Positions 640 through 48,786 of a DNA stretch of 64,000 nucleotides are shown one piece after another; the stretch's first letter is position 1; each line of letters starts with the position of its first letter. The notes under the pieces were generated by a model. It saw nothing but the letters and a program-made list of their open reading frames with translations, did not search any database and was not told where the DNA came from. Origin of the DNA: Patiria pectinifera (Eukaryota > Echinodermata > Asteroidea > Valvatida > Asterinidae); assembly GCA_029964075.1 (NCBI GenBank), contig CM057148.1:29753916-29817915 (forward strand), read 5' to 3'. The position numbers and the translations under genes were made by a program.

Positions 640-1965
640 TTTCTGTATAATCTATCATGAAACAGCTTTACTGGTGCTATCGTTGCTTACTTGATGCAGA
701 ACGACTTAAATAATATGCAAGACTGGTGTTTAAATCATGACATGCTCTTCAATACAACCAAAGCTAAGGTTATGCACGTCACCAGAAGCAAAAATATCCA
801 TCCTCCAGTTTACACACTTGGTGATGCTGCCCTGTCTACAGTTACCTCTATTCAATATTTAGGTGTCACTATTAGCTCCAATCTTCAATGGAATTCCCAT
901 ATTGACTCACTTGTCCCACGTGCAAATCGCCTCCTGGGTTTCATCCATACTATTGCTGGCGGAGCATCAACTCAAGCCATATTCTGCCTTTACAAATCTC
1001 TGATCCTGCCTATCCTGGAATATGGCATTCCAGCGTGGGGTACTCACACTCTCTCAACAGCAAAAGATTGAGCGCGTACAACGCACTGCCACCCGCATTG
1101 CTTTGAAACAAAGACGCGGTGAAATGCCATATGAGGATAGGTTGGGTCAGTTAAACTGGTCTTCTCTTTCATCTAGAAGAGATTATTTACTATGCTCTTT
1201 TGCTTTCAAATGTTTATCTGGTGTTTGCAGGTGCGAGTCGATCAACGACAATGTTCTCATAAATGCACGCCATCCAGAATCCCTCACCTTCCGTCATCTG
1301 CCTTCTCGTACACAAGCTTTATATCATTCTCCTACTCGTTATCTTCCAAGACTTTGGAACCAATTTCCACCCCATATTAGGGATTCTGCAGTACTAGACA
1401 CTCTACCTGTTTTCCTTAGGAATCTTCGGCAATTACTTTTCTCAGACAACTGATTTCATTATCCTCATTAGTGTTTTCATATACGGTACTTGTTGCATTT
1501 AATTGGTGGGGACTTTCACATGACTTTCACATGATTTGGGCTTCGTTGCATTAGTCTTCTTGCTTGCGTGTAATTTGTAACAGGGGTCAGTTTTCTTGTT
1601 GCTGTTTAATATTTTCATTATTTTCTTGTACCTTGTTTTGTTCTTGTCTGCGTTTGTCTGCTTAATATGTGCGGGGTTACATACCTGTGGGTAATAGTAA
1701 TTGAATTTACTTTTGTGACCCCTGACCCACATATCGTCTTTTTATATATCGCCTTCGGATGTTTTCATTTCATTTCATATTATGCGTTGTTTTTGTGGCC
1801 CCTACACTTACACTTACACTTATACAGTGTCGTCTTTTGTGTTTATTTTGTTTTATTTTGTATTTCGTAGCTTTCATACATTTTTGTTTAGTTTTTGTTT
1901 TTCATACCGTGCTTGTGCATTGTGCATTGTTTTGGTCGAATAAATAATAATAATAATAATAATGA
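640..1965 (+). mobile_element. 5'-truncated LINE retrotransposon, 3' part of the reverse transcriptase ORF
   Basis: Two overlapping frames (691-1071, then 1022-1453) read as one interrupted protein. Recognisable pieces are NDLNNMQDWCLNHDMLFNTT, KVMHVTRSKN, IQYLGVTISSNLQWNSHI, LYKSLILPILEYGIPAWGTH, then KIERVQRTATRIALKQRR and NWSSLSSRRDYLL. These are hallmarks of the C-terminal part of reverse transcriptases of CR1/jockey-type LINEs (the YLGV and L..PILEYG..AW blocks). The catalytic motifs, which lie upstream, are absent. The frame shifts near 1050-1065, so the copy is dead. A T-rich 3' part leads to an (AAT)n tail at about 1939-1965, typical for the 3' end of such elements. The left boundary is approximate; an in-frame TGA lies at 658. 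Confidence 0.85.
1939..1965. repeat. (AAT)n microsatellite, LINE 3' tail
   Basis: About eight AAT units end the LINE fragment. The following stretch to about 2330 is AT-rich and holds nothing I can support. Confidence 0.8.
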
Positions 1966-9845: not shown

Positions 9846-9963
9846 ATGTGAAGTTATTTTTCGTGCATGCGTGACTCTGGAACGGGAGAGGTCGTAGGAG
9901 TACAATACATACCTGATAGGGGTGTTGTCTGTGTAGGGTATATAGCCTCTCGCTGGCATCACG

Positions 9964-10287
9964 CTAGTCATCACGCTTCACGTACTCGTCGTTGGACCTC
10001 TTCTTTCGTTTGCCGAAATCGCCACCGTTGCCGCAGAGAGCCGGGGGCCAGGGGCAATCAGGAGGATCGTTTCGTTTACTCTCGGGAAGTTTCGCCGCAG
10101 GCTGAGCGACAGGAGCGAACCGCTTGCCGAAATCACCGCCTAAGCCGCAGAGAGCCGGGGGCCATGGGCATCCTGCGTCTCGTTTACTCTGTACAAACGC
10201 CGCTTCTTCCTCATCAGCATACACTGATACCGTAGAAGCAGCCAGAAACAGCTGTAGTGCAAGAAAGAGATGGACACTCCTTGCCAT
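9964..10287 (-). CDS. Precursor of two disulfide-loop, amidated peptides (paralogue 1)
   Basis: A secretory preprohormone. I start at the ATG at 10287 (context AGCATGG) rather than the in-frame ATG at 10299, because this gives MARSVHLFLALQLFLA, aligning end to end with the paralogue at 13193 (MAKGVIFVIATQLFLA) and placing the predicted cleavage (VYA/DE) after residue 24 in both. After the signal come a short acidic spacer and KR, then DAGCPWPPALCGLGGDF-GKR, a 16-residue spacer ending KR, then NDPPDCPWPPALCGNGGDF-GKR and a basic tail. Known processing rules predict cleavage at KR and conversion of Gly to a C-terminal Phe-amide. The two cysteines around PWPPAL should form an intramolecular disulfide. 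There are two mature peptides and no other cysteines. A strong splice donor (CAG/GTATGT) lies about 51 bases past the stop. I do not recognise the family; a receptor-binding neuropeptide is the likeliest role, an exocrine peptide the alternative. Confidence 0.85.
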   Translation of the reverse strand: MARSVHLFLALQLFLAASTVSVYADEEEAAFVQSKRDAGCPWPPALCGLGGDFGKRFAPVAQPAAKLPESKRNDPPDCPWPPALCGNGGDFGKRKKRSNDEYVKRDD

Positions 10288-10347
10288 GCTGGATCTCATA
10301 ACTGTGTGTTCTAGCAGAACGAATGAGAAGCAAAGGAAGATATATCC

Positions 10348-10355
10348 CTTTTATA
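10348..10355 (-). promoter_or_regulatory. TATA box of peptide precursor gene 1
   Basis: On the minus strand the sequence reads TATATAAAAGGG. The TATA core is about 60 bases upstream of the chosen ATG, leaving a 5' UTR of roughly 30-40 bases. The paralogue has the equivalent CATATAAAGGGG at a similar distance. Confidence 0.6.
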
Positions 10356-10474
10356 TATTTTATGACAGCTCAATTAAAAATAGATTTTTAAGGTTTTTAA
10401 AAAGAGTAAATGTCCAAGTAAGAGAGAACCAGTCGCAGTTGATGTTGACATACTTTGTGTTGACTTATCTGTAA

Positions 10475-13120
10475 GAGGCGTACTTCAACACTAAAAAAAA
10501 AAGGATTAATTGGTGGGAGATTCTGTTCCCTAAATTTGAACAGAAAAACAAACATGCAGGGTTTTGTTACACTGTCTCTCATTTCATGTGTGATTCAATT
10601 GTGTATGTTCTTCGTGCCTGATGACGTACAGCTACATCTAGAAATAGATCGGTATAAACCATTATCTGTCGTTTTCTTTGAGCAATTGCCTATCCAATAT
10701 TCCCTTTACAATTGACCATATTTTGCAACTTAGAACTTGCAATAAAGTTGAGGGGAAATTCTCCAAATTACCGCCCTTTAGAAATTTACAAAGTCGGGAA
10801 AGCTGGGAGCGGGACTGGACACTCTCTGACAATAGGGGACGCTGTTAATGGCAGAACATTATAATGTCCCCAACAAGTGTTTTATTTTGTTTTTAAATAT
10901 CTACAAAAACATGTGTTTAATTTTGAAAAAAGTTTGGTTGTTCTAAGTGAACTGTTTCACTTCCTTCACGTTGTTGAAAGTGCTGGAGTTGAGATTGGAA
11001 TCATTTGCCTGGCTATCAGTCATCATGGCAAGACCTCAGTTTAATGCTCAAGGGCGAATGATTCCAAATTCAAACCACATCAGCCTTTTTTTCACAACAT
11101 GTAGAATTGTACACAGCTTACAAAAACAACACTGAAATTTGTTAAGGCAAGGAACTTGGTCACAAGGTCCAAACATGTTGTTGTGATCAATTGACGATTG
11201 TGAGGTGATGCATGCCTGAAATTAAATGAAACTCATAGGGGTTGAGATCAAGGCTTACGAGTATCTGCAAAACTTTAAAAAATATTATGACAACAGTCGA
11301 CGGACACTTTTTTTTGGAGGGGGACATACTCTACATTGGATACGAGTTTGTTTATGTACAAAGAAGTATTTTGCCGTTCCCTGCCATTGTTTTCCATGTT
11401 TGACTAATACATTAAATATCGTGTCTTATGTAGTCTATGGTGGTATAAAACTTAGGCTAGTTTTGGACTAGTTAGCAGAGCTCGATATTGACATCATAGA
11501 GGATCAGTTCAGGGGTGCTTCGTTTGAAAACGCACGAGATCTGGTAGGGGCTGGAAAACCAACCCACATGCGGACCACGACGGGAGTGGAGCACGGGACA
11601 TAAAAGTGGAAGACAATGAGAGAAACACGTCCAAATTGTTGCAAAACAAAAGAAAGGTTCTGATTTTTTTTAAAATTCTTAATAAGTACCCTTTTTGTTA
11701 CCGTGACTAATGCTGAAAACGGAATTATGAAACTGGGTATTTTTTTTATAGGGCAACGAAAACTGATGAGGCGCCCTACTATTCATTGTAGACCAATTCG
11801 TAACGGACGTCAATTGACGACTAGTGCCATTATAATATTGTGAATGTAATCATAGGGCCGTATTATCTCTTTATGGTAACCAACCATGTTCGCCTTTGTA
11901 CAATCATTGTCTGCTTAAAAAAATAAAAAGGGAACTGTCCAACGCCGTCTGATGCTTGGATAGTTTCTGGTCGTTTCGAGTGATTCGAAATGAGCTTGAG
12001 ACAATGCATTGCATTGAAAAGATGAATTTGATGGTGGGCTTTTGACAGAAAATTTGAACAACAAAACAATGAGTACACAATCCAGTGCATTATTCAGGAC
12101 CAGTAAAATGTATCCTTAATGTATTGTCATTGCGAGTTGTCTTTAGGGAAAATTAGTAAGTTTCATTGGGACAACCGATATTGCCCAGCATTTGTTCATT
12201 TGAAGAGGTATGACGTAAAATTAAGTTTAGTTTTTAAATCGGTGAAGTAATTTGGATACTCTTGAAGCCGTCGCTCTTTCTATCGGCATTTGTTTTAGGA
12301 GAACTTATCTCGAAATCACGTACCGTTATTTGCGTTCTCGTGCCGCGATCGTGCTCAATGAATGACATACAGAAGAATGTATTGAAATTCAAAGTGAACT
12401 ATTTCTTACGCACGACCACAAACCTCGATATCTAACAATTAGGGTCTTTAATTGTGATGTTTTCCACAAGCCGGGAGATTTATTACTATCTGCGTGAAAG
12501 AAAGGGGACAAATGCTGTATGTGTCGTATAATTACTTTTTATTTGCATAAAATAATTGCGGTTGAAATCCACCTGCGTCAGCACAGCCGCTGTTACCATC
12601 TCCAAATTAGGTCTAATTAGTAATGATAAATGTCTCTCGAAAGATTAAAGTTTACTTACTTGGAAAATAATTTTTGTAAAGCAGAAACATGGAGATCGTA
12701 TGGACGGTAAACCAAACACCTGCTAAATTGGGATATGACACCCTTATGAGAATGTTTCAGGAGTGTTTGCCCGTTGAAGCACGGACAATAATCATTGTAA
12801 AGTGATTTGATATACCACGTTGCGGCGTAAGAGCGCTACTTAAATGCCTGCTTTTTATTATTTTAATTATACCATTGCAAGTGTGTAGACATTTAACAAA
12901 AAAAGGAATAACATAACCTATTTTAATAACTAAACCTATGGTGTACGCTTCTTATTCTGCAAATATTGTAAGAAAACCCTGGCACTTAATTAAAAAAAGG
13001 TCTGTGTGATGTGGACCTGTTTTCCGCCGAAAGGCCTGTTCGTACCTCCGTTTGCTGTTTGCTTGACCTACATCAAATGAAACTCAAAATGCATGTCTTA
13101 TTTATGGAAGCCGTAAAAAA
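10475..13120. other. Intergenic region between the two divergent precursor genes
   Basis: About 2.8 kb between the two TATA boxes. AT-rich with no recognisable gene, RNA or element. Because the two genes point away from each other, shared enhancers could lie here. The short open frames are not supported. Confidence 0.5.
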
Positions 13121-13124
13121 CGCA

Positions 13125-13130
13125 TATAAA
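13125..13130 (+). promoter_or_regulatory. TATA box of peptide precursor gene 2
   Basis: CATATAAAGGGG lies 68 bases before the ATG at 13193. Transcription would start near 13155, giving a 5' UTR of under 40 bases. Confidence 0.6.
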
Positions 13131-13192
13131 GGGGAGTTGTTTCAATTTTCTTCCAATTCGTTCTGCCCTAGCGCTCCACCTGTTTTTCTAGA

Positions 13193-13525
13193 ATGGCGAA
13201 GGGTGTGATTTTCGTGATTGCTACGCAACTGTTTCTGGCTGTTTTGCTGCTATCCGTGTCGGCTGATGACGAAGCAGCGAAACGCGACCTGAACAAACGG
13301 AGTGAGGAGGATTGTCCCTGGCCCCCGGCTATGTGCGGCAGGGGCGGCGATTTCGGCAAAAGGTCCAAGCAACTCCAAGAGAAAAAGAAGTGGTCTAACT
13401 CCCTTGAAGACGACTCGGACCGGTTCGAGAAGCGTGCGGAACCCTGCCCCTGGCCTCCAGCTCTCTGCGGCAGCGGAAGCACTTTTGGGAAAAGAAGGAT
13501 TCGTGATGCTGATGAGAAACGATAA
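13193..13525 (+). CDS. Precursor of two disulfide-loop, amidated peptides (paralogue 2)
   Basis: A 110-residue preprohormone in one exon. Residues 1-24 are a signal peptide (MAKGVIFVIATQLFLAVLLL, cleavage SVSA/DD). A short spacer has KR at 30-31 and 35-36. Peptide 1 is SEEDCPWPPAMCGRGGDF followed by GKR (55-57). A 24-residue spacer rich in Lys, Ser and Asp ends at KR (80-81). Peptide 2 is AEPCPWPPALCGSGSTF followed by GKR (99-101). The tail is RIRDADEKR. Both peptides should be amidated at Phe and closed by one Cys-Cys bridge over six residues. Against paralogue 1, the signal length, two-copy layout and loop are conserved and the spacers are not, the pattern expected for a bioactive peptide under selection. 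A strong donor (CTCAG/GTAGGT at 13555) lies 30 bases after the stop. The family is unknown to me; low-level similarity to other amidated cyclic peptides cannot be judged without a search. Confidence 0.87.
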   Translation: MAKGVIFVIATQLFLAVLLLSVSADDEAAKRDLNKRSEEDCPWPPAMCGRGGDFGKRSKQLQEKKKWSNSLEDDSDRFEKRAEPCPWPPALCGSGSTFGKRRIRDADEKR

Positions 13526-13555
13526 ACTGTATACAGACTGCAGAGAATATCTCAG

Positions 13556-15590
13556 GTAGGTGGTACGAAGACTCTTTCAAACCCAGACCCTTCTGTTTCC
13601 TCCCAGACGGAGAGTATTTAGCATTATAGCAAACATCTTACAACGCAGAATGGGTACGTAGGCAACAGGTATTTGTTATCAACGTATTTTTGCCTCCTTA
13701 GGGAAGAACTTCTCGCAAATTTAACAAACTCTGTTTTGTCTCAATCCTTAACAACGTCATTGCGATACTTCAAGAACGCAATGATGGTCAGAAGTTCCAA
13801 TTAGTAATACAAAAACTAGTAAGCTCTTGATGTCATGACCATTCTGGTAACTATTGGTCTCCGGTCTGCTAAACCGACAACCTCTGGCTGTACCGCGATC
13901 TTACCGATCATGGGGGAAGGATCCTAGCTTTCATATGTAGTCTCCCCATTATAACACCAGATCAAGTACATCTCTCAGCTCATTCAAAATGACCCTCAAA
14001 GCACACTACAATTTAGCCTACGACACAATAGCATCAGTTCTCCTGCCATTGTATTTGTTCGTTTGTTATTTTTGTTGTAGTGCATGAGCGCCTATTAGGT
14101 GGATGTGTGCGCATTATTTATAACTAATATTGCCTATTGCGATTCCAAAAAAAAAAAAAAAATCAGAACAGAGTATGCCAATGTATAACAATAACTCGCA
14201 TGCAGAGCCTGCGTCAAAGACATAATTTGATGAATGCGATTTAAAACAAAAATCCTCTTCCTGGCACCTGTCAGCACTTTCGCGCTATGAAAGTCAAAAG
14301 GTTTTTATCCCCGCAAGAGTAAGCAAAACCTTTTCTGCTAACGGTAGCAAGCCTGATAAAAGGGAGGGTAGTTTTTACCACGAAGTTGACCTTTACATGT
14401 CTAATAAAAAGTTGATTACGCATGGAAATCGAAAACTTTGATATGTCAAATAACAATCGCCAGCAAACAGTAGACTTGCGCGGTTGATTTTTCCCCTAAC
14501 CCCGCACCCATCCCCTACCTACGGGTCTGCATATCTGTGAACTCTACCAATCAATACATCGCAAATCTCCAGTATTTTCTTTAAATGTTTCTACCTCCAC
14601 CGACGTCTTAAAGGTATCATTCAATCAAAGGTTTACAAAGGCAAAATATGTCTTCTGTCACCCAGCGTTTGTGTAAAGTATACTCTAAGTTTGTCTTTTA
14701 TTTTGTTCTGTCGTTCCCTTCAGGAGCTTGAACGTTCATCACATCTAGCAATTGCCCACCTGATTTGACTCGTCAAGAACACTTTCGCATCCCAAGAGGC
14801 GTTCGACAGTTACACTACACTGTTATACCAGCCAATAAGAACATTTACCATTATTGTTAGAAGTAGGAAATCTTTGCTAACAAAATGGTCTTGTGTAAAT
14901 TATTTTAGGTTTTGAGTTCTTCTCTTGATAAAACAAACATCTTTATGTTTAAAACTGAAATTGAATGAAAAAAAGAGAAGAAAACATATCTATGAGAACG
15001 GTAAAAATATAATTAAAACTAACCTAATTCCTGTTTAATCATCGAGACAGACTCGATTTTGGTTGGTCTGATAAAAGAGGTTTATGTAGCTTTTTCAACT
15101 ATGTATCAATGTATCCGTACCCCTAAAAAAAATACCTTTTCGACAATGAGTATAAACCTTTGAATTTACATTCATTACAAATAACGCTGTGAAAACAAAT
15201 ATATAAAATCGTCACATTATTTTCGAAAGTTTAACATAAATTGGTATTTGTCCTTAATTATGTGCCCAACAATAGTGAATTTTGAACTTTAATATCGTAA
15301 GCATGTTGTACCATTAAACTTCTACAAATCCGTCGTATTCAGTATTTTTCCCTTGGCCGCAATGTTGCTGGTAAAATAATTGGATGCGTAATGAGTCAAT
15401 GTCCTGAAACGTCCTTAAGCCACGTCTTTGGACCAAGCTACGCTTTCTAAAAAAAAATGTTTAAGTGATCTTTAAACTATCGAAGTATTATAAACTCCCA
15501 AACACTGTTAGGAGTTGATATGCTTGTCAAATCCTTTACTTGTCTTCCGTTATATCAATGTGTATGAATAAAAAGCTGCAGAAGAATTAA
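13556..15590 (+). other. Probable 3' UTR intron and terminal exon of peptide precursor gene 2
   Basis: The donor at 13555/13556 could join a strong acceptor at 14723 (a long pyrimidine tract ending CTTCAG, exon from 14724). The terminal exon would run to about 15590, where AATAAA (15567-15572) is followed within 20 bases by an A-rich end. There is no coding sequence. This is inferred from splice signals only; the region otherwise holds nothing I recognise. Confidence 0.3.
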
Positions 15591-18716: not shown

Positions 18717-19437
18717 CTGCATTTGAATGTATTGTGATGACTCTATGGATTATGCGAGAAGAGGCACACGTTGCGAGTCGGTGTAGCATCGTGTCCTATC
18801 AATTGCTGAAGGTGAATAATTGCGTTGAAGGCTGTTTATGTTTTTGAAAAGGATTCACAATTATTATGCATGGCTTCTCGTCGTTCCATAGACAAAGAGT
18901 ACGTGGAGTTTTGAAGGTTTTTTTAATATCTGCCAATTCTAGATGAATGGTTGCTCGCTTCAGACTCCATAGATTCATTGTAATCCATGTTCACGCTTTC
19001 CTATCGAGGCCGGACTTTATTGCAGCCCCTGTGGTTATAAAAGTTAGAAGCATATAACTGCGTGCGACGCTGCAACGTATCGCATCGATTCTTTAATATC
19101 TACTACTTCGGCGAAGGCTACGTTCAATTTTAGGGATCGCATTGTTAATTAAATGCGAAACCGCTTCTAGCAGCTGAGAGACATCGTTAATTTGCTACCT
19201 CTACATGCATTCAAATAGGCTCCTCCCATGTGAGACTGACATATAATGTGAAAGTGTTGAAACCTCGCCCGAAGTTATTATAACACTCTCTCCTGATTGG
19301 TTGGCCTTTAAGACTATGTCAGCGTCAGCCTCTGCGCAGTGCTATGGTCTGCGTATCTGTTGCAGCGAGTCTGTGTGGTTTATGCACTCGGTAATAAAAG
19401 ATCAAACAACGGCTTCTCGATCATTTCATCTGGGAGA

Positions 19438-22400
19438 ATGGACGGAGCGGCAGCCTGGATTTTGATGGTATCGGCAATGACAGGTAGGCTTCAAATTTGA
19501 CTGAAACCAATAACCATCACACAGTGGAACTCACGGCAAAAAAAAATCATTAGTATTTATTTTTTATAATGATGCCTTAAAATCCCAGATCATATCATTA
19601 TAGTTTTTTTTCTTTTGGCAAGCCATGAAGGTTTGATCCTATGAACAATAAAGGTTCGAAATCTATTTCTCAGATAGACGATGCCTTTTCGGTGTCCTAA
19701 GAGGGCGCAATGTATTCACTAACCCTTCCAGAACAGGAGTATTTAGGATTTTCTCAGGACGGCGGTGTCATTGTGCACCGAATATAATTTCCAAAATGCT
19801 TTGGCGTGTTTTCTTAAATATAGTATGAATGGATGTCGGCCGGTCACTTATCATTTAGTTGCACAACGTAAAGAGCAAGAGGGGCTTTACATTTTTACCC
19901 ATTTGTGGTCACAAGAACTACTTTGGCGTAATGTTTACATTTCTATTCAAATACTTTCAAATTTGGTATAATTAATGTTAGGTTAATTTTCATCCGATGA
20001 AATAACCGTAAAAGGTTTCCACACCTACTTTTGGAGATAAAAGCATTATTTGTTAGTGATTTGTGTCCCGAGTTGTTGTTTCCTATATATTTTTTTTTTT
20101 TCAGTTCTCCTCTTGAAACGTTAAAGGAAACGTTATTATTCATTAATCAGTAACAATGGGAAAGGGACACATCCATTTACTACCCGTATCCGTCTCGTTT
20201 TCTCTTGCTAAAACGTTGATTTAAAATAAAAACAACCCAACCCAACAGAATGAAACACACGTTTTGAGAGCTAGTTTTGAGTAACAAGCCTATCGATCGA
20301 ATCTTACACAATGAAAATTATTGGTAGCAGTCAACATTTCTACAAAATTAATATTTTCAACTGCATACATTAAGATGTTATACTGAGTGATAAGTAAAAC
20401 TGAAGAGCATTTTATGTGCTTCGTACTGCATGTGAAAACTTGTCAGTGAAGAAAAATATTTCAGTCTAGATGGTAAGGAGAGTTGTGGTGGAGATCAGAG
20501 CAAGAAACAGTATAGTACATAAAGGATAATGCAGCATTACCATGGTGAACTCATGGTCTTTCAAATTCCATAATGTCTAATTGTTTCACGTATACAAAGA
20601 CATTCAAGTTGATGACATATGAACACAGCACCAATCTATAACAACCGGGCAGATGGATGAGAACAAATACAGGCTGTCTAAAAAAAAGGAACCCTCAAAG
20701 CGTCCCCATTTTTTACAACTTTAACAAAAGTAAATCTCAAATATTTATACATATTTAAAAAGGATAGCTTTCCAACAACGAAAACATGTTTTCAGTCGGT
20801 TAAATATTTATTGAGTTATGGCCAATTCAACTAAAGGCCGATTTTTCAAGCTGTCCATGGTTTAAATTTTCATTTGTAAGGATTGTACGAGATTGTGGGG
20901 TGAGGGTAGTTTTGCCTTTTTTAATGTTTTAATTTTTTTTTAATTTTTTTTATTTTCATTCTACATTTTAATTTTGGCAACAATGGTCTATTATACTTTA
21001 GGAAGAACTGGAAATTCCGGGAAAAAAAAACAATGCAAGCTTCGATCTGGGGTCTTAATGCAGCAGTCAAAATATCAGTCGCCGTAGACAGAATGAAGAA
21101 GTGGTCTCTGTTTTTAATTGGCCATAACTCAATAAATATTTATCCAATTGGAAAAGTTTTCTCGCTGTTGAAAAGCTAATGGACCATACTCTCTAAATAT
21201 AAATAGATATTTCCGGGGTTTTTTTTGGAAGTTGTGAGAATGAGGACGCTTTGAGGGTACTTTTTAGACACCCTGTAGTTTGAATCATGTATCAATAGCT
21301 AACAATTTTGGGGAAAATGTATCGATCAGTAAAATCAGCTTGTATTTGAAGCACTCTCGGTGCCGCTTCGTTTCAGCACACGAACAGAGAAAACGGCACT
21401 TCTTGTCACTGTATCTCCTAAATAACATTAGTGAGGAAACATTGCATACAAATTCAGCGTTTACTGGGGTCGTGGCATGGAGAACAAGGCATTAGTTGGG
21501 AACTAAATAGACCGATCACATTTGGAGAGCCCCATCCATTTGGGAACAAAATGTTGCCAGCTTTCTTATTCAGCTGTTGTACTGCATAATTGACCTATCG
21601 CGGTAGAATGGCGTTAGAATCACTTCAACGCAGCTTGCGAAATATTGTCCAACTACATGATGTACAATAGACGAGGAACGCGCACAATCTGAGACAATCA
21701 AAAGTTCGTGTACAAACATTCCATAGAGTTGTCTAAGGGACGTGGCTAACTCGCAAACGGCGATAGGTCAATAGTTATGCTGTCTCAAATATTGATGTTT
21801 TCAGTTGAGGTTGATTCTTCATTATTAAACATTTGAATAATGATGCTTTCTATATCATTCTTAGCTTGCAATTTTTTGTTTTCTTTCTTTTCATACAACT
21901 CACAGTGCTGGTGTCATGCCATAAGATTTGCTTCATCGGATCGGAGTACAACCCACAATCTGGTATCCCACCCCGATGGTTCTTACCGTACACAGATCCG
22001 TGCGAATGCACCGCTGTACGTCTCGGTGGAATGCTCATCCATGGTTCGCCCTACCGCAAGGGGGCGCCCTACTACACGGACGAGCTCTTCTCGAGTGAGG
22101 ATTCTAACGAAATTCAAAAATACTTCAACTGTAGTCGTGCAAAAACAGTTCCCACAGGTAGGTCAACACCGAATACGTGCGGTTTTGACAAATGTAAGCT
22201 TACATCAACTATTCAAGTACCAAACCTATTTTTTTTAAATTAAATACTATGTTTACAACCAAGAGCAGAATTGTCTTCATAACTGATAATGTGATGATTG
22301 GTAATAATCTTATCGATTCATCTCAGCTGAGTTGAAAAAACGTTGGTTAAATTTAAACGGTAATAAAAGAATATAAAAAGAAATCTGATGAATATATCTC

Positions 22401-24983
22401 AAAAGTGAGACATATTCTTTAAGTCGCATGATACCTATGCGCGTTTTGGCTGTTTTCATTTGCCGAGACAGCCTTTGATTTCGTTAAGATTTTATTTTAT
22501 TTAGTCATTTTTGCCCATAACATTTGTAACATTTTTTTTTGTCCCCGGCACTTTGACACTAAAATCAATCCGATTGCGTTCATACATGGCACAAACTTAG
22601 ACTAACACCTACAGAAGTGTGCCGAAGATTGACGTCATCATAAGTCATGTGACGTCACATTTAATAATTTGAAGGCCTATATCTCCAGAACTTCGTGTCC
22701 GATTGGGCTCAAAGTGAGTCATGATGACGTGACTGTGAAAGACGTGACGTCACGTTATATATTAATATATTTAATCTTTGAAAATCAATATAAAATCAAC
22801 CGTGAGAGACCTTAACATGAATTTGGTGACATAACATAATCCAGGGTCTTCATTTTTGATAGCACGTGCAAAACCACGTGATCATTCTATCCGGTTGAAA
22901 CCGGGAGTGCCTTGTAATTTTAAATTGTTAAAAGATGTGAACTTGCTTTCAACAAGATATGCTCTTCCCAAGTTGTTCTTTACAAAAAAAATTAACGGTG
23001 ACGTCATAACATGTTAGAGCACCGTCTAGCGGCAGGTTAAAAACAAATAAACTGAATAATCAGTAGATGTGTCTGGCGAATTTTGCTGAAATCGTTTTTC
23101 TAAAAGATGTACACAGCCAGCTCCATACTTGCCTAACCTGCAAGTTGAGGGGGGGGGGATTGATGACGTCGCCAGACTGGAAGTTACAATGAAAATACGT
23201 GAAGACCTTAAAAAAAATTGCACAGTCACCATAGCTCTCAATATTTCTGGTAATGACGTCACCATGACGTCATCAAGTATCAAATTATAAGCAACCAAAT
23301 ATTTCTAGATTTCATCGTCGAAAATCATAAGTCCAGTTATTCTTTTTTTCATTGTTGCGTATTTGAGCCAATATAGACTTCTTTTGTTTGTGTCCTGCAG
23401 CGGCTTTCCAATATAAACGAGAGCATCGAAACAAAAATCAGTAATTCATTTTTTATCCTGTTATATTATCAGTTGTTGAGTGTTTGAGCCCGGAGCCCCT
23501 CGGTCTTGAGGACGGTACCATCACTGATGACCGCATCACAGCGTCAAGTCATCAAACAGGCTGGCCTACCAGTGACGGACGGCTAAACGATGAGAAAGCA
23601 TGGATACCTTATGCGTAGGGCTAAATTACGAAGAAGAATTAAAGTAAAAAAAAAAAAAAAAGTGAATGAAATTTTACAAACCAAACATTTTACGATTGGA
23701 CTTAATTTTCCCAAAACCGCTGAAACACATTTAAACGCGTAATGTACGTTGGATATAAAATCAAACGTATCAAAGAACAGGATAAATAGATTACGTGATG
23801 ATACGGGATAGGATCAGAATACAGTAGAGAAAGTATTACATACTGTCAGTGTTTTCTACTGTCTCGAGAGTGAAAATAGACACTGGGATTAAGGCTGAGT
23901 CACAATCAGTTTCGCCACTCCCTCTAGTCACGTTCATTCCTCTCATTCTCCTTCTCTATTTGTACAGGTACGATGACAATCCCTGGATTGAGGTGGATCT
24001 TGTTAAGAGTAAAGTGGTGTCTGGTATCATCACTCAAGGTTCTGGTGTTTATGATTATTATTTTATGGAGCAGTACAAGGTGGCGTATAAGAAGCAGCCC
24101 TCATCCAACTATATATACGTTACAGATGGACATGGAAATAAGGTAAATATTTCGTCACCGACACCACCGTACTCAGACTCACACTTGGGGATTATTAGTG
24201 AAAACCGTGTAATCAACAATTTCGGTTTCACGAACTGACACGCAAGCGTGTTGCAGCAATACGAAACGGAGAAAACTTTAAGGTTTGACACGAATTTAAT
24301 CCATCATAATACTTATGGGCTGATACAAAATGATTAAAACTCTTTTTTTATTGGTGAAAATAAGATCAGTGTCAGTGTACTCAGTGCGCCCTGAAGATCT
24401 GCACTGTGCCGGGTGTCAGTTCGTGAAAACGAACAAACTGTAAAATACGCTTGCCAGGCACTCACGCGCCACTGAGGGTCAGTTCGTGGTGTCGGTGACG
24501 ATTTGTCGCAGTTTTCTTCATTCTAATGATTCCGATTATAACGATATTCTTCTTATTCCATACTGTCCGACATTCGTCTGTGTTTTTTTTTTTACCGTAG
24601 AAATGATGTCAAAGAACAATGGAAACAAACCAAATATACAAACAAAGATGCGACGTTAATAAATTAGCACCGGGCGTAATTTGAAACATATTATAACCTT
24701 TGTGATTCCGACAAAACGAATAGTGAATTGCATACTTCTTCTACGTTTGAAAGTAAAAACAGTGGAGATAAAACAAACATGTTTGTATTCCTGTCGATAA
24801 GAAATTGGGGAATATTTTGTTTATTAATTATGCCAGGTGTTCATCGGCAACACCGATGGCAACACCCCGGTCACTAACCTGTTTGACGAGAGTGTAGTGT
24901 CTACGATAGTGCGCATTGAGCCTATTGCATGGGAAAGAGGAGACGCTCTACGAATGGAGTTGCTAGGATGTCATCTTGATTAA
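19438..24983 (+). CDS. Secreted F5/8 type C (discoidin) domain protein, gene A
   Basis: A five-exon model built from splice sites: 19438-19483, 21906-22157, 23473-23614, 23968-24142, 24837-24983; intron phases 1, 1, 2, 0; total 253 residues. Exon 1 is a signal peptide (MDGAAAWILMVSAMT) continuing VLVS. Exon 2 is a region of unknown family with Cys at 20, 24, 48, 50 and 91 and motifs CHKICFIGSEYNP and RWFLPYTDPCECTAVRLGG. Exons 3-5 are an F5/8 type C domain: Cys103 at its start, PLGLEDGTITDDRITASS, GRLNDEKAW, NPWIEVDL, VVSGIITQG, VFIGNTDG, and the closing RMELLGC, whose Cys250 should pair with Cys103. Such domains bind carbohydrate or membrane lipid outside the cell. All junctions are GT-AG and preserve the frame. 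It is paralogous to the gene at 38120. A lectin-like role in immunity, adhesion or matrix is inference. Confidence 0.87.
20670..21275. mobile_element. Tc1/mariner-like MITE in intron 1 of gene A
   Basis: About 170-bp inverted termini: the left begins CAGGCTGTCTAAAAAAAAGG and the right ends TTTTTAGACACCCTG, with matching CCTCAAAGCGTCC/GGACGCTTTGAGG and TTGAGTTATGGCCAATT/AATTGGCCATAACTCAA blocks further in. It is flanked by TA on both sides (20668-20669, 21276-21277), as for Tc1/mariner insertion. The interior has no transposase. Confidence 0.75.
22600..23290. repeat. TGACGTCA-rich repeat in intron 2 of gene A
   Basis: GACGTCA occurs repeatedly (about 22631, 22651, 22748, 23001, 23164, 23257, 23270) next to phrases such as CTATATCTCCAGAACTTCG and TCCGATTGGGCTC. 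Related phrases with TGACGTCA recur at 42900-44060 in intron 3 of gene B. It is probably a decayed dispersed repeat rather than a set of enhancers. Confidence 0.45.
24153..24500. mobile_element. 348-bp MITE (CGTCACCGACACCAC type) in intron 4 of gene A
   Basis: The terminal inverted repeats are CGTCACCGACACCAC at the left and GTGGTGTCGGTGACG at the right, flanked by ATTT on both sides (24149-24152 and 24501-24504), consistent with a 4-bp target duplication. It begins only 10 bases after the exon 4 boundary (24142). A longer relative lies at 39438-40135. Confidence 0.8.
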
Positions 24984-26439: not shown

Positions 26440-26520
26440 ACCACTTGGGTGGGACTCGATCCCACGACCTTCTGCTTTCTATTGCAGACGTCTTACCACT
26501 CGATCACCGAGCTAACGGGA
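26440..26520 (-). repeat. tRNA-derived repeat or tRNA pseudogene
   Basis: On the minus strand there is an A-box-like TTAGCTCGGTGATCGAGTGG (26496-26515), a normal 33-base interval and a B box GGATCGAGTCC (26452-26462) inside a perfect T arm (GTGGG/CCCAC). The acceptor stem does not pair and the anticodon loop has eight bases, so it is not a normal tRNA gene; a SINE head or a tRNA pseudogene fits. Confidence 0.65.
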
Positions 26521-32310: not shown

Positions 32311-32412
32311 GCAGTGACGGTGGTCTACGTGCGTGCCGAGGCGTCTTGGTGTGTTCTTATACTGGTTATATACACTCAACTGTATGGATTGTCGTTCATT
32401 GCCTCCCTGAGA

Positions 32413-32816
32413 ATGGACGGAGCATGGATTCTGATTGTATCCGCAATGACAAGTAGGCTTAACTGTACGCTCTAATCTAATTAGCCTGAAATCGCATCGA
32501 GTCAAAATTGAAATAGTTGTGAACACAATTATTATTCAGCCTGAGGTTTTGATAGTTTTATGAAACTTGGTAAAAACAGAAACTCAAGGAACTTTGTTTA
32601 AATTGAACAACTGGATGATAGAGTTAAGTCGCAATTGATTGGCGTATAGCAGGTGCTTATGATTGTTGAGGTTATTTAGAATTGTGTTAACACATATTAT
32701 TCAAATATCGGCCAACTACGTGTCCTACTATTTTCCTTTTACCTATTGCAGATAATTATGATGAGAATTCCGACCCTATTCTCACCGGGTCCGCTCATAA
32801 GTCCGACGCCTCATAG
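32413..32816 (+). pseudogene. F5/8C-family exon 1 with aberrant short second exon
   Basis: Exon 1 at 32413-32452 encodes MDGAWILIVSAMT, two codons shorter than the family signal exon but in the same phase; its last base is A instead of G before GTAGG. A 3' splice acceptor with a pyrimidine tract (CTATTGCAG, next base 32752) could join NNYDENSDPILTGSAHKSDAS and a stop inside a 16-bp minisatellite, giving a 34-residue secreted product. The normal exon 2 and the F5/8C domain are missing. It is most likely a truncated gene copy; a mini-gene is possible but unproven. Confidence 0.45.
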
Positions 32817-32960
32817 GTCCGACGCCGCATAAGTCCGAACAAATTGCATCCCCGACCAAATAAAGGACTATAAGTCCGACGCCTCATAGGTCCGACGCCT
32901 CATAAGTCCGACGCCTCATAGCTCCAACGCCACATAGCTCCGACGCCTCGTAGGTTCGAC
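32794..32960. repeat. 16-bp minisatellite, copy in unit A
   Basis: Imperfect units of CATAGGTCCGACGCCT with CATAAGTCCGACGCCT and CATAGCTCCGACGCCT variants, interrupted once by a spacer around 32840-32870. The same array recurs at 35031-35197 and 37269-37468. Confidence 0.85.
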
Positions 32961-33391
32961 AATTAAATTTACATTTATTTCTGTCCATAAAGCCTCCATA
33001 GGTGATCCATGTAGCATGAAAAGCTCCATGGATCAATGAGTTCAAGCAGTCAGCGTTTGGTTTATAGCGCCCCTTCCATTTTATTCTGCTTGATTGTAAT
33101 AACAGCGATTCAAGTTGATTTCTTAATAAATGCGTTAAAGGATATTGTATTATTTTGAAAAGGATTTAGTATTGCATGGCTTTACTTCGCTCCTAGACGA
33201 GGCCTATGTGGAGTATTCTAAATTTGCCAATTTTAGATGAATGGCTGCAGACCTTTTCATTAGAGTAATTGTCTCTAATCTATTTCTGTCCATAAAACCT
33301 CCAGAGGTGATCCATGTAGCATGAAAAGCTCCATGGATCAATGAGTTCAAGCGGTCAGCGTTTGGTTTATAGCGCCTCCCCTATTTTATTT

Positions 33392-34106
33392 AGTCTGGTT
33401 CCCAGACCAAAAGATTCTGACTATTCCTGATGAATCTTAGGTCCGGTAGCCTCCGGTAATACATCGTATTACAATTTACGTCACGTGACTAAAACGGGAG
33501 GAATTCCTCCTTTTTCCGAAAATTTCCGAAGTTTGCCGAAGTCTTTTCGTCGACAATCGGATAGTGCCCGAGTATTTCCGAGTATATAATATATGTTTAA
33601 TTAACTGTTAATTGCTTATTAATTTTATTGTAAATGAGTTGATAATTAATACTCATTGCTTTCATTTAGAAAACGTGAAATTCAACGACGATTTTGTGCA
33701 TCAAATATACTCGGATCGTATGGGCGAACTTTTTGCTGCGTTATGTGCAATTTGGAATTTGATGACCGTTACCGAGATTTTCCAAAACTTGGTCTTCATT
33801 CTTCTCCGCCTGCTAACAGTGCTATTTGGGTGCCTAATTTTGAAGATTCCAGATCAACATTAGTTGATGTTATCTCACAGAAACATCAAACTGTATTATA
33901 ATAACTGTATGATATTACGAAGCAAGTGATTCATTTAAAAATTTGATCAGAACATTAAAAGCTACAAGTGATAAAGCGAAATCGGAAACGAAGCCGAGCT
34001 TTGAAAAAGGGCCATTAATGTCGCCATGTTTATTTTTAGCCGCGGAGGCTGCCTGACCTAAGATTCATCAGGAATGGTCAGAATCTGTCGGTCTGGGAAC
34101 CAGACT
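33392..34106. mobile_element. Foldback/TIR DNA element, copy 1 (715 bp)
   Basis: The ends are AGTCTGGTTCCCAGACC and its complement GGTCTGGGAACCAGACT, extending to about 65 bp of imperfect inverted repeat (including CCTGATGAATCTTAGGTC). The flanks CTATTTTATTT and CCATTTAATTC look like an imperfect duplication, and unit C (around 37590) has the empty site CCATTTTATTCTG. The interior holds two overlapping short frames of about 82 codons (33612-33863 and 33656-33901) without recognisable transposase motifs. Confidence 0.75.
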
Positions 34107-34643
34107 ACCATTTAATTCTGCTTGATCGTAATAACAGCAATTCATGTCGATTCCTGAATAAATGCGTTGAAGGACATTTTATTATTTTGAAAAAGATTTA
34201 CTACTGCATGACCTTACTTCGCTCCCAGACGAGGCCTATGTGGAGTATTCTAAATTTGCCAATTTTAGATGAATGGCTGCAGACCGTTTCATTGGAGTAA
34301 TTGTTATTTATAATATTTTACGCTTTCCTTTTTCAAATATTCTATTTATAGCTATTGCAGTCCCTGTGGTTATTAAAGTAAGAAGCATATAACTGTGTGC
34401 TGTGCAATACCGTATCGCATCGATTCTTTATTATCCATGACTTCGGGGAAGGCTACGTTCAAAATTAGGCAGCGCTTCGCTAAACCACTAGTGTGCTACC
34501 ACACAGCGCATATAATGGTTGGATTTCAGACCTGCATCATCCTCTTAAGTGATCTGCGTAGCTGCTGAGGCGAGTCCTTCTGGTGTGTGTACTCGGTGAT
34601 ATATGATCAAAACAACGGATTCTCGATAATTGCATTTGGAAAA

Positions 34644-34689
34644 AAGGACGGAGCAGTAGCTTGGATTCTGATTGTATTCGCAATAACAA
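34644..34689 (+). pseudogene. F5/8C-family exon 1 relic, ATG lost
   Basis: Matches the 46-base signal exon of gene B (GGACGGAGCAGTAGCTTGG), but the start codon is AAG and ATGACAG became ATAACAA before GTAGG. No downstream family exons. Confidence 0.75.
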
Positions 34690-35030
34690 GTAGGCTTGAC
34701 TGTACACTCTAACCTAATGAGCCTGAAATCGCATCGAGTCAAAATTGAAATAGTTGTGAACACAATTATTATTCAGCCTGAGGTTTTGATAGTTTTATGA
34801 AACTTGGTAAAAACAGAAACTCAAGGAACTTTGTTTAAATTGAACAACTGGATGATAGAGTTAAGTCGCAATTGATTGGCGTATAGCAGGTGCTTATGAT
34901 TGTTGAGGTTATTTAGAATTGTGTTAACACATATTATTCAAATATCGGCCAACTACGTGTCCTACTATTTTCCTTTTACCTATTGCAGATAATTATGATG
35001 AGAATTCCGACCCTATTCTCACCGGGTCCG

Positions 35031-35197
35031 CTCATAAGTCCGACGCCTCATAGGTCCGACGCCGCATAAGTCCGAACAAATTGCATCCCCGACCAAATAA
35101 AGGACTATAAGTCCGACGCCTCATAGGTCCGACGCCTCATAAGTCCGACGCCTCATAGCTCCAACGCCACATAGCTCCGACGCCTCGTAGGTTCGAC
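35031..35197. repeat. 16-bp minisatellite, copy in unit B
   Basis: Same unit order as the unit A copy, apparently base for base. Confidence 0.85.
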
Positions 35198-35627
35198 AAT
35201 TAAATTTACATTTATTTCTGTCCATAAAGCCTCCATAGGTGATCCATGTAGCATGAAAAGCTCCATGGATCAATGAGTTCAAGCAGTCAGCGTTTGGTTT
35301 ATAGCGCCCCTTCCATTTTATTCTGCTTGATTGTAATAACAGCGATTCAAGTTGATTTCTTAATAAATGCGTTAAAGGATATTGTATTATTTTGTAAAGG
35401 ATTTAGTATTGCATGGCTTTACTTCGCTCCTAGACGAGGCCTATGTGGAGTATTCTAAATTTGCCAATTTTAGATGAATGGCTGCAGACCTTTTCATTAG
35501 AGTAATTGTCTCTAATCTATTTCTGTCCATAAAACCTCCAGAGGTGATCCATGTAGCATGAAAAGCTCCATGGATCAATGAGTTCAAGCGGTCAGCGTTT
35601 GGTTTATAGCGCCTCCCTATTTTATTT

Positions 35628-36343
35628 AGTCTGGTTCCCAGACCAAAAGATTCTGACTATTCCTGATGAATCTTAGGTCCGGTAGCCTCCGGTAATACAT
35701 CGTATTACAATTTACGTCACGTGACTAAAACGGGAGGAATTCCTCCTTTTTCCGAAAATTTCCGAAGTTTGCCGAAGTCTTTTCGTCGACAATCGGATAG
35801 TGCCCGAGTATTTCCGAGTATATAATATATGTTTAATTAACTGTTAATTGCTTATTAATTTTATTGTAAATGAGTTGATAATTAATACTCATTGCTTTCA
35901 TTTAGAAAACGTGAAATTCAACGACGATTTTGTGCATCAAATATACTCGGATCGTATGGGCGAACTTTTTGCTGCGTTATGTGCAATTTGGAATTTGATG
36001 ACCGTTACCGAGATTTTCCAAAACTTGGTCTTCATTCTTCTCCGCCTGCTAACAGTGCTATTTGGGTGCCTAATTTTGAAGATTCCAGATCAACATTAGT
36101 TGATGTTATCTCACAGAAACATCAAACTGTATTATCATAACTGTATGATATTACGAAGCAAGTGATTTATTTAAAAATGTGATCAGAACATTAAAAAGCT
36201 ACAAGCGATAAAGCGAAATCGGAAACGAAGCCGAGCTTTGAAAAAGGGCCATTAATGTCGCCATGTTTATTTTTAGCCGCGGAGGCTGCCTGACCTAAGA
36301 TTCATCAGGAATGGTCAGAATCTGTCGGTCTGGGAACCAGACT
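35628..36343. mobile_element. Foldback/TIR DNA element, copy 2 (716 bp)
   Basis: Same element and same insertion point as at 33392, carried along by the tandem duplication. Confidence 0.75.
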
Positions 36344-36881
36344 ACCATTTAATTCTGCTTGATCGTAATAACAGCAATTCATGTCGATTCCTGAATAAAT
36401 GCGTTGAAGGACATTTTATTATTTTGAAAAAGATTTACTACTGCATGACCTTACTTCGCTCCCAGACGAGGCCTATGTGGAGTATTCTAAATTTGCCAAT
36501 TTTAGATGAATGGCTGCAGACCGTTTCATTGGAGTAATTGTTATTTATAATATTTTACGCTTTCCCTTTTTCAAATATTCTATTTATAGCTATTGCAGTC
36601 CCTGTGGTTATTAAAGTAAGAAGCATATAACTGTGTGCTGTGCAATACCGTATCGCATCGATTCTTTATTATCCATGACTTCGGGGAAGGCTACGTTCAA
36701 AATTAGGCAGCGCTTCGCTAAACCGCTAGTGTGCTACCACACAGCGCATATAATGGTTGGATTTCAGACCTGCATCATCCTCTTAAGTGATCTGCGTAGC
36801 TGCTGAGGCGAGTCCTTCTGGTGTGTGTACTCGGTGATATACGATCAAAACAACGGATTCTCGATAATTGCATTTGGAAAA

Positions 36882-36927
36882 AAGGACGGAGCAGTAGCTT
36901 GGATTCTGATTGTATTCGCAATAACAA
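36882..36927 (+). pseudogene. F5/8C-family exon 1 relic, ATG lost
   Basis: Same AAG-for-ATG change and ATAACAA end as the relic at 34644, showing that the loss came before the unit duplication. Confidence 0.75.
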
Positions 36928-37268
36928 GTAGGCTTGACTGTACACTCTAACCTAATGAGCCTGAAATCGCATCGAGTCAAAATTGAAATAGTTGTGAACA
37001 CAATTATTATTCAGCCTGAGGTTTTGATAGTTTTATGAAACTTGGTAAAAACAGAAACTCAAGGAACTTTGTTTAAATTGAACAACTGGATGATAGAGTT
37101 AAGTCGCAATTGATTGGCGTATAGCAGGTGCTTATGATTGTTGAGGTTATTTAGAATTGTGTTAACACATATTATTCAAATATCGGCCAACTACGTGTCC
37201 TACTATTTTCCTTTTACCTATTGCAGATAATTATGATGAGAATTCCGACCCTATTCTCACCGGGTCAG

Positions 37269-37468
37269 CTCATAAGTCCGACGACTCATAGGTCCGACGC
37301 CGCATAGATCCGACGCCTCATAGGTCCGACGCTGCATAGGTCCGAACAAATTGCATCCCCCAACCAAATAAAGGACTATAAGTCCGACGCCTTATAGGTC
37401 CGACGCCTCATAAGTCCGACGCCTCATAGCTCCAACGCCACATAGCTCCGACGTCTCGTAGGTTCGAC
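37269..37468. repeat. 16-bp minisatellite, copy in unit C
   Basis: Has extra units (CATAGATCCGACGCCT, CATAGGTCCGACGCTG) not present in units A and B, so array length varies between copies. Confidence 0.85.
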
Positions 37469-38119
37469 AATTAAATTTACTTTTATTTATGTCCATTTAG
37501 CCTCCAGAGGTGATCCATGTAGCATGAAAAGCTCCATGGATCAATGAGTTCAAGCAGTCAGCGTTTGGTTTATAGCGCCCCTTCCATTTTATTCTGCTTG
37601 ATTGTAATAATAGCGATTCAAGTGGATTTCTTAATAAATGCGTTAAAGGACATTTTATTATTTTGAAATGGATTTAGTATTGCATGGCTTTACCTGGCTC
37701 CCAGACGAGGCCTATGTGGAGTATTCTCAATTTGCCAATTTTAGATGAATGGCTGCAGACCTTTTCATTAGAGTAATTGTTATTTATAATATTTCACGCT
37801 TTCCTTTTTTGAAATATTATATTTAAAGCTATCGCAGTCCCTGTGGTTATTAAAGTAAGAAGCATATAACTGTGTGCTGTGCAATACCGTATCGCATCGA
37901 TTCTTTATTATCCATGACTTCGGGGAAAGCTACGTTCAAATTAGGGAGCGCTTCGTTAAACCACTAATGTGCCACCGCACAGGGCTTATAATGGTTGGAT
38001 TTATGACCGACGCCATTCTCTTAAGTGATCTGCGTAGCTGCTGAGGCGAGTCCTTCTTGTGTGTGTACTCGGTGATATACGATCAAAACAACAGATTCTC
38101 GATAATTGCATCTAAGAAA

Positions 38120-46159: not shown

Positions 46160-46790
46160 TAATTTGTGTATGTTTCATTAAGAGTTAGCAAAAGTAAGAG
46201 ATAAGAAAAGGAGTAATGTATTGTGTGGTTTTGTAATGCGAGTACAGCTTTACATGTAGGCTAAAGGTTAAAGGTGGCTGTCTTGATCAGTGGACATATT
46301 TTATTTTGCTTTAATTTTTTTTCTTATCGTGTCCACTACGAAGGTTCAAAAGAAGACATCTGATTTTCTGCCACTATAATAGCAGAACAGCTGATTGAAA
46401 GTTTTGTTAAAATGCATTTTTCTACTGTTCTGTTTTTCTGCTACCAGAAAAGCAAATAAAACGTCTTGTCGCGGCGGTTCAAAAGTGGCCATTGCTTTTC
46501 CGCTATAAACAAAAAGCAGATTCAACGCTCCAGAACGCAACTTTATGCCACTCTAGTGGACGGTTGCAAGTGCCTCCGCCTCCGTCATTACGTCATGACA
46601 GTGTATGCGCGCATCCCATTCAATCCAATTTCTCACGCTTCACTATGATTTGTTCATATGCCCTTGTATTCATCAGGTTATAGTTGCATACTAAAATTGA
46701 TGTAAAAATTTAATCACAAGAAATTACGTAAGAGCCTAGCTTTTCATATATAACTTAAAGCAAAGCTTCGGCTCAATAAAAGAAAAATCA

Positions 46791-46821
<31 letters not shown>

Positions 46822-48150
46822 CTGGTTTATTCATATAAAAACACGAGGTAGGCAGCCACAAAAGAGTCGCTGACATAACCACGTTTACACTTTACAGGAA
46901 TTAAAAATTGTAAAATAGCAGTTAAAAGGAGTAGAAGCATAAAATTACAACAAAGTATAGGATCATGTATACAGCACAAAACAGCACAATATTAAAAAAA
47001 AACTGATTTATAAACTTTTTTTTTTAAATTTAAAATTGAAGACAGATCATTCGTTGAAGATGGTCTAATAAGAAGTACTCACTTGCACCTACATTGTAAA
47101 CAATTAAGAATTACAAAAGTTTAGCTAAGACAGTTTTGATATAGTTAACAGTAAAATAAAATGTCCTGTTTTTTTCATGTCAAGATTGGATTTGGTTGTT
47201 GAGGTTACTATGGTCTTTGCATGAAGATGCAAACGTTGTGAGTCAGAGTAGCACCGCGTCATTTCGAGACCTTGATTAATAATTGCGCTAATGGATATCG
47301 TATGAATTTTTGAAAGGAATTTAATATTGCAAAGCTTCGTTTCGCTCCAAAGACGAGCACCACCCGGAGTCATAAAAAATATACTAATGTCTGCCAATTT
47401 TAGACGAAAACGGTTGATCGCTGCAGACTATTCCAAAAGAATCAGTGTTACCTTCGCCAAGGAGGTAATGTTTTCATCGGCGTGGTTAGTTTGTTGGTCG
47501 GTCGGTTGATTTTTCTGTTATCAAGATAAACTATAGGTTACGGACGGATTTGCATGACAATTTACGGTGGTGACAATTTTGTAGGGGTAGCCCGCGATAC
47601 AAGTTCAAATGCATTCGATTAATTCGTAAGTGATCCGGATCTGGGTCTGGATCCAGGATTGTTTGAAAGGATTCCTCATCATCTCTGAAAGTCCTTTTTG
47701 GTTATTCTTAATCTCTAACCCTTTGCTATCTAGACCAGGTGTTATTGTATCCCTTGCAGTACGAAATACGTGTATAAAACTGCGTGTAGTGCTACACGGC
47801 GATGCATCGATTTTTTATGATCTACGATGTCGGTAAAAGCTACATTGAATCATTAATGAAGCACTTTGGCTAAAAGACGCCGCTTTTAGCCACTGAGGCG
47901 CTGCTAATTTGCTACCGCAAAGGCACTGTATGAGTGAGCTTTAAAAGTTTCATGCTATGGATTGTTTTTAGGAACACATTTTGTTCAACTTTCTACTTCT
48001 TAGATGTATGAATACTATTCAAATCCGTTTTGGGTTAATTTCATTCGGTTAAAGCACATCTTAAACATGGAAAACGTTTATTTTCCATGCTTTTCTGGCA
48101 TTTTTCTTTGATGTCATTTCAGGAAGAAATTGTTAAGTTTGGAGGCCGTT
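46160..48150 (+). repeat. 1.99-kb tandem duplication, copy 1
   Basis: Shared order with copy 2: AGATAAGAAAAGGAGTAATG, a region rich in CTGCTACCAG and CCGCCTCC, a (TTA)n run (46793-46820), then a type-1 flank (47150-47850) with ATGCATCGATTTTTTATGAT and GTAAAAGCTACATTGAA. No signal exon follows in this copy. Confidence 0.8.
46793..46820. repeat. (ATT)n microsatellite
   Basis: A run of TTA units; its duplicate at 48754-48785 is longer, so the length changed after duplication. Confidence 0.85.
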
Positions 48151-48156
48151 TTTTTT

Positions 48157-48748: not shown

Positions 48749-48786
<38 letters not shown>

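Follow-up and report, generated by a model that had tools for sequence, protein, structure and literature searches.

Small amidated ring peptides and the CPWPP locus

Peptides of the oxytocin/vasopressin type have a disulfide loop of four residues and a neurophysin domain, CCAP has a loop of five residues, and peptides of the allatostatin-C/somatostatin type have a six-residue Cys loop with an aromatic residue at loop position 2 and the ring near the C-terminus. We compared these and other systems with a pair of genes, hereafter A and B, found in a 64-kb stretch of contig CM057148.1 of Patiria pectinifera (the whole stretch analysed, hereafter the window; 38.6% GC). Both genes code for putative prepropeptides of 107-111 residues, each with two units of the type CPWPPA[L/M]CGxG[G/S]xF followed by Gly-Lys-Arg (GKR). 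Like oxytocin/vasopressin and CCAP, the predicted products are small amidated single-disulfide rings, and they share a six-residue loop with an aromatic second position with the allatostatin-C/somatostatin type. They differ from oxytocin/vasopressin and CCAP by a loop of six residues, from the former also by precursors devoid of Pfam domains at the cut-off, and from the allatostatin-C/somatostatin type by a six-residue tail past the second Cys and another loop consensus.

The closest described system in architecture is that of the EP/CCHamides. The pertinent sections of PMC6617912 present them as peptides with two cysteines, an aromatic residue in the ring and Gly-Gly or Gly-Ala before an amidated last residue, which is variable (His, Asn, Met, Phe or Leu); they are usually present as a single copy right behind the signal peptide, although exceptions exist. 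The CCHamides SCLEYGHSCWGAH-NH2 and GCQAYGHVCYGGH-NH2, as given in an excerpt of PMC3533232, have C-x6-C rings, and portions of PMC5627052 and PMC12002301 group CCHamide, EP, endothelin and bombesin-type peptides together as relatives. The units of the window similarly have two cysteines in a C-x6-C ring and a GKR amide site. All four have a Trp in the ring, and three have Gly-Gly before the end of the tail, the remaining one having Gly-Ser. In contrast, their ring, CPWPPA[L/M]C, harbours three prolines and no YGH, their tail is longer, and they are present in two copies per precursor set apart from the signal peptide, rather than as a single copy following it. We do not claim membership for them; by analogy, the two systems may work alike. 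The preliminary description of this locus had missed this closest six-residue-loop comparison, while its view of the prepropeptide architecture and of the unrecognised status of the family stood.

Contryphans of Conus are characterized in the relevant part of PMC5100318 by the ring CO(W/L)xPWC with a five-residue loop, by amidation of the second Cys in the majority of them and by signal peptides of the O2 superfamily. The window peptides have in common with them a Cys-Pro-Trp-x-Pro ring start and, as predicted, one disulfide and a C-terminal amide, but their loop of six residues and six-residue Gly-rich tail depart from the contryphan ring. As stated in sections of PMC10501145, the same motifs can turn up in endogenous peptides and in toxins of cone snails. 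The doppelganger-related peptides presented there are, like those predicted for A and B, unnamed secreted peptides spotted by a conserved peptide and diverged spacers; the lengths and disulfide counts of the Triangle, CHH, Tail and Medial types do not fit, judging from their descriptions in those sections. In starfish, two-cysteine peptides are mentioned in part of PMC4772807, one of which (Arnp24) is amidated and unassigned, so that there is precedent for orphan peptides of this type.

Precursors, predicted peptides and their conservation

We propose, with a probability of about 0.65, that A and B are paralogues encoding precursors of secreted signalling peptides with a disulfide ring and an amidated C-terminus, of a known kind but of a seemingly new family. 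Judging from the sequences, secretion and the formation of the ring and amide are likely, and a messenger role is probable; that the target is a G protein-coupled receptor (GPCR) we only infer.

The two genes (Table 1) form a head-to-head pair with divergent transcription and 2.9 kb between their ATGs, and their products are 49-50% identical over 109-113 columns (tblastn). In both, a signal-like start is followed by a first unit (A1 or B1) flanked by Lys-Arg (KR) and GKR, a spacer, a second unit flanked in the same manner (A2 or B2) and a tail, which is short in A. Twelve residues, KR included, separate the signal from the first unit in both precursors. KR immediately precedes and GKR directly follows all four units. 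The four cysteines of each precursor are all located within the units, with six residues between the two Cys of each peptide. The preliminary description had thus been right to place two precursor genes with two peptides each at 9964..13525, with open reading frames (ORFs) as indicated, and its claims of a shared motif, of KR on both sides with a Gly amide donor, and of exactly two cysteines per peptide hold for all four units. It had also claimed signal peptides of equal length. Both are 24 residues long if translation of A starts at the second Met, the putative signal from there aligning with gene B and the relative P0019 (see below), whereas that of A would be 28 residues long from the first Met.

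The putative signals are hydrophobic N-termini ending with Val-x-Ala, as assessed from alignment, hydrophobicity and a predicted helix. An AlphaFold2 model, computed with gene A as the first sequence of a 19-sequence alignment, consists of a single helix at residues 2-37 that spans the signal and of low-confidence coil elsewhere, which is as expected in a model of such a precursor. Its mean predicted local distance difference test score is 61.4 and its predicted template modelling score is 0.28; because of the former, a fold comparison is unwarranted.

According to established peptide biology, removal of the signal peptide would be followed by cleavage at KR by a prohormone convertase, trimming by carboxypeptidase E and conversion of the Gly into a C-terminal amide by PAM, and a disulfide bond would close CPWPPA[L/M]C into a ring of eight residues. 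The product would combine a ring rich in Pro and Trp with a Gly-rich tail that terminates in Phe-amide. For these disulfide-bonded amides, monoisotopic masses of 1671.717 (A1), 1967.793 (A2), 1949.749 (B1) and 1715.744 Da (B2) were calculated, to which reduction would add 2.016 Da in each case. The least certain steps of this scheme are that neural or endocrine cells would release the product and that it would act on a receptor at the cell surface, probably a GPCR of the rhodopsin type.

The arrangement of the units is hardly expected by chance. All four occurrences of the pattern C-x6-C-x4-8-GK[RK] in stop-free reading frames of the window are confined to two frames, with two in each. Among 200 resamples from a first-order Markov model, the mean number of occurrences was 0.125, and no resample contained a frame with two units. 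At the DNA level, the motif TGYCCNTGGCCNCC was found four times with at most one mismatch, with 0.19 occurrences expected in the window.

Comparing A with B by the Nei-Gojobori method on small codon samples, we obtained non-synonymous (dN) and synonymous (dS) divergences of 0.11 and 0.87, respectively, for the 34 codons of the peptides and GKR (dN/dS of approximately 0.13 for the peptides), and of 0.40 and 0.55 for the 24 signal codons; for the 40 spacer and tail codons, dN is 0.73 and dS is saturated. The ranking is clear, with the peptides as the slowest-evolving part of the pair and the spacers as the fastest, in agreement with the conserved loops and unconserved spacers reported initially. 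Section 3.6 of PMC10501145, a part of that work, states that signalling precursors keep the peptide while their spacers diverge, and that toxins keep the rest; by this yardstick, A and B follow the signalling-type rather than the toxin pattern.

The family appears to be undescribed within the literature searched. No Pfam family passed the cut-off for either window gene or, among the 20 relatives (see below), for any of the eight that were scanned. A PDB sequence search, which covers chains of at least 20 residues and to which contryphans themselves are thus out of reach, gave no match to peptide A1, and the family profile retrieved only a chance match in the signal region (E 8.9) and no relevant structure. 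No peptide paper was found by exact-string search of 5.39 million papers for CPWPP or its extensions, supplements and figures being outside that search; the matches obtained were a speech-recognition paper and, for the shorter string CPWP, an oomycete paper and a cone-snail review. The exact pattern had no match in the bacterial or viral contig collections, and tblastn detected none in phages with gene B as the query or in plasmids with P0001. A search for longer multi-copy precursors using a query padded to 324 residues (of which 1-106 were scored) yielded 313 candidates, none at E <=10. The initial claim of an unrecognised family therefore survives the Pfam, PDB and exact-motif literature searches run.

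Table 1. Features of the precursor genes A and B in the window (CDS, coding sequence)
Feature	Position	Strand	Remarks
Precursor gene A CDS	9964..10299	minus	111 residues from first ATG; stop TAG 9964-9966 (ORF listing, sequence)
Gene A alternative start, second ATG	10287	minus	gives 107 residues
Predicted signal peptide A, MARSVHLFLALQLFLAASTVSVYA	10216..10287	minus	24 residues from second Met; aligns with gene B and P0019
Predicted peptide A1, DAGCPWPPALCGLGGDF-NH2	10129..10179	minus	KR upstream; GKR at 10120-10128
Predicted peptide A2, NDPPDCPWPPALCGNGGDF-NH2	10015..10071	minus	KR upstream; GKR at 10006-10014
TATA box gene A, TATATAAAAGGG	10346..10357	minus	begins 58 nt upstream of first ATG
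Strong splice donor gene A, CAG|GTATGT	9907..9915	minus	last exon base 9913; 51 nt past stop
Precursor gene B CDS	13193..13525	plus	110 residues; stop TAA 13523-13525 (ORF listing)
Predicted signal peptide B, MAKGVIFVIATQLFLAVLLLSVSA	13193..13264	plus	24 residues; by alignment
Predicted peptide B1, SEEDCPWPPAMCGRGGDF-NH2	13301..13354	plus	KR upstream; GKR at 13355-13363
Predicted peptide B2, AEPCPWPPALCGSGSTF-NH2	13436..13486	plus	KR upstream; GKR at 13487-13495
TATA box gene B, TATAAAGGGG	13125..13134	plus	begins 68 nt upstream of ATG
Strong splice donor gene B, CAG|GTAGGT	13553..13561	plus	last exon base 13555; 30 nt past stop

Relatives in public assemblies and rival explanations

A single-sequence search of public sequence assemblies with gene B gave three weak matches (E 0.014, 0.024 and 7.4). 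A profile built from A, B and those three matches collected 20 proteins at E <=10, the weakest at 2.5e-4. Three E-values below 1e-30 belong to proteins already included in the profile, and the scores of other relatives are boosted by the signal/pro-region of the three seed matches, such that P0020 scores without the motif. CPWPP[AP]LC[GP]xGG is present in 17 of the 20 relatives; besides P0020, P0009 diverges after CPWPPAL and P0013 lacks the first Cys. Judging from these sequences, the motif also exists outside this genome. An animal origin of the relatives, as of the window, is suggested by the signal, the processing sites, the gene density, an F5/8 type C exon and the reverse-transcriptase-like fragment described below. 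The 19-sequence alignment comprises the 2 window genes and the 17 relatives left after exclusion of those three exceptions, gene B being represented by its second unit, its first having Met in place of Leu. It shows no variation at the ring residues C, P, W, P, P, L and C or at two columns of Gly. Tails end with DF, FW, FL, MH, QF or TF among the relatives, which form several paralogue groups. P0019 is 40% identical to B over 108 columns and 35% identical to A over 106, and its signal resembles those of the window (MARS..QLFLAA..ADDE). It has GGKRR after the motif and KR sites further upstream, with none close before the ring.

Several observations weigh against the reading of A and B as precursors of amidated messengers. 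Among the 17 motif-bearing relatives, only P0019 has Lys-Arg after the Gly of the motif, and KR is found at most 12 residues before the ring in only four (P0008, P0010, P0011 and P0018). In the listed ORFs of the other 16, the final Gly precedes no dibasic site (the next residue is E in nine, K in four, I in two and A in one). The signal/pro-region of the relatives is also well conserved while their tail residues vary, a partly toxin-like pattern. Finally, no AATAAA or ATTAAA is present up to 870 nt past either stop in the window, the first ones being at +1239 for A and +877 for B. Regarding the non-dibasic endings, all 16 are compatible with an exon boundary within the Gly codon at a G|GTR donor, and the near-identical P0014 and P0016 part two residues after the Gly; the listed ORFs of the relatives may thus run into an intron. 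Nevertheless, seven of the 16 end with GE[PS]x-stop, as would also be seen at a genuine C-terminus, and the relatives may truly end with GEPT and hence be non-amidated. If the intron read-through is wrong, those 16 relatives are non-amidated.

The same processing route would also serve secreted effectors rather than messengers, such as venom, defensive skin or mucus peptides, or antimicrobial peptides. A compact, TATA-driven gene pair, each member of which apparently has its entire coding sequence in one exon, would suit effectors, as would the conserved signal/pro-regions and varied tails of relatives in several paralogue groups, and contryphan venom peptides have the Cys-Pro-Trp-x-Pro ring start as well (in the part of PMC5100318 cited above). 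We consider this explanation unlikely: the evolutionary ranking within the window peptides and spacers is the reverse of the toxin pattern in the sections of PMC10501145, and all four predicted peptides have a net negative charge (-1 to -3), which is unusual for antimicrobial peptides. That A and B have no product, being silent or decaying copies, would accord with stops that fall at non-equivalent codons of a tail that can otherwise be aligned, but it is very improbable given the low peptide dN/dS and the integrity of every processing site.

Other alternatives concern membership of a described family. A strongly diverged branch of the EP/CCHamides (bombesin/endothelin-related) that acts on a matching GPCR would account for a C-x6-C ring as in CCHamide-1/2 with an aromatic residue in it, for the two glycines between the second Cys and the amidated end, and for Phe, which is among the terminal residues of that family (sections of PMC6617912 and PMC3533232). 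A precursor with two copies remote from the signal, not a single one adjoining it, the lack of Tyr-Gly-His in the ring, extra residues on either side of Gly-Gly, and the absence of any Pfam family at the cut-off and of any relevant PDB match make this branch improbable. We regard as very improbable that A and B belong to an already described family, the foremost candidate being the Hairpin doppelganger-related peptides found in molluscs and annelids, which are contryphan-Vc1 relatives. The Aplysia Hairpin precursor is multi-copy and expressed in neural and secretory tissue, as reported in part of PMC10501145, whereas neither A1 nor the profile had a contryphan-type PDB match, the presence of the contryphan-Vc1 structure 2N24 in the searched set being unchecked. 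As for the contryphan family itself, the chance of membership is next to negligible, in spite of the CPWxP ring start and the amidation (Table 2 of PMC5100318): loop length and tail already fail, with five residues and no tail in contryphans versus six and a Gly-rich tail here. The initial treatment of contryphans as a resemblance only was thus sound.

The CPWPP peptides could represent a separate, unnamed animal signalling family that extends over several lineages and has a near-fixed ring CPWPPALC, an exchangeable tail (DF, FW, MH and others) and its own orphan receptor; from the sequences at hand, we see this wider proposal as evenly balanced. There is perhaps a very faint chance that the Cys-Pro-Trp-x-Pro ring of contryphans imitates CPWPP peptides of prey.

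Gene structure, surroundings and implications

The motif ATTCGTTCTGC is present downstream of the TATA box in both A and B and may mark the start site of both genes. Strong splice donors were identified shortly after both stops with a weight matrix; sites of the same grade occur in the window at 0.12 per kb of strand for the score of gene A and 0.03 for that of gene B. A second donor of nearly equal score is found 296 nt past the stop of gene A. The post-stop donor stretches of the two genes seem to align by eye. It is likely from these donors that the genes consist of one coding exon and an intron in the 3' untranslated region. A retrocopy origin is not supported, because A and B share the strong post-stop donor. 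Beyond A and B, tblastn detected no convincing third copy in the window, the remaining matches having E >=1.7.

Elsewhere in the window, a signal-peptide-like exon is present in seven copies on the plus strand (19421-19490, 32390-32459, 34627-34696, 36865-36934, 38103-38172, 50542-50611 and 58405-58474). The copies read MDGA...VSA.T and are followed by GTAGG or GTAAG; those at 34627 and 36865 lack the ATG. Two exon-like stretches of the same strand, at 21875-22072 and 40662-40859, are 83% identical (CHKICFIGSEYNPQ and CHQICYMGSEYNPQ, respectively), and an F5/8 type C exon is found at 23828-24235 (plus strand; PF00754, E 1.4e-6). The latter was the only one to pass a curated Pfam cut-off among 18 non-precursor ORFs scanned in the window. 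Together, these elements may represent tandemly arrayed genes of a secreted discoidin-type family.

Tandem duplications were found at 32390-38180 and 46300-50065, with periods of approximately 2.24 kb and 1.96 kb and 88-100% identity in most listed pieces. Each 2.2-kb unit harbours a 16-bp tandem repeat, CTCATAGGTCCGACGC (32794-32960, 35031-35197 and 37269-37468). A reverse-transcriptase-like fragment at 661-1450 (plus strand) has a weak, below-cut-off match to RVT_1 (E 0.016), located in the first ORF of a pair that overlap in different frames. A tRNA match at 26441-26513 on the minus strand scores 34.5 bits with Rfam and was not reported by ARAGORN.

Part of the reason why peptide GPCRs remain orphans is that precursors with only one or two copies can escape pipelines designed to detect many repeats. 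With a ring kept almost letter for letter and at least five tail types among the window genes and several groups of relatives from other assemblies, the CPWPP peptides would provide defined candidate ligands for orphan receptors, and their Pro/Trp-rich ring would constitute an unusual small scaffold.

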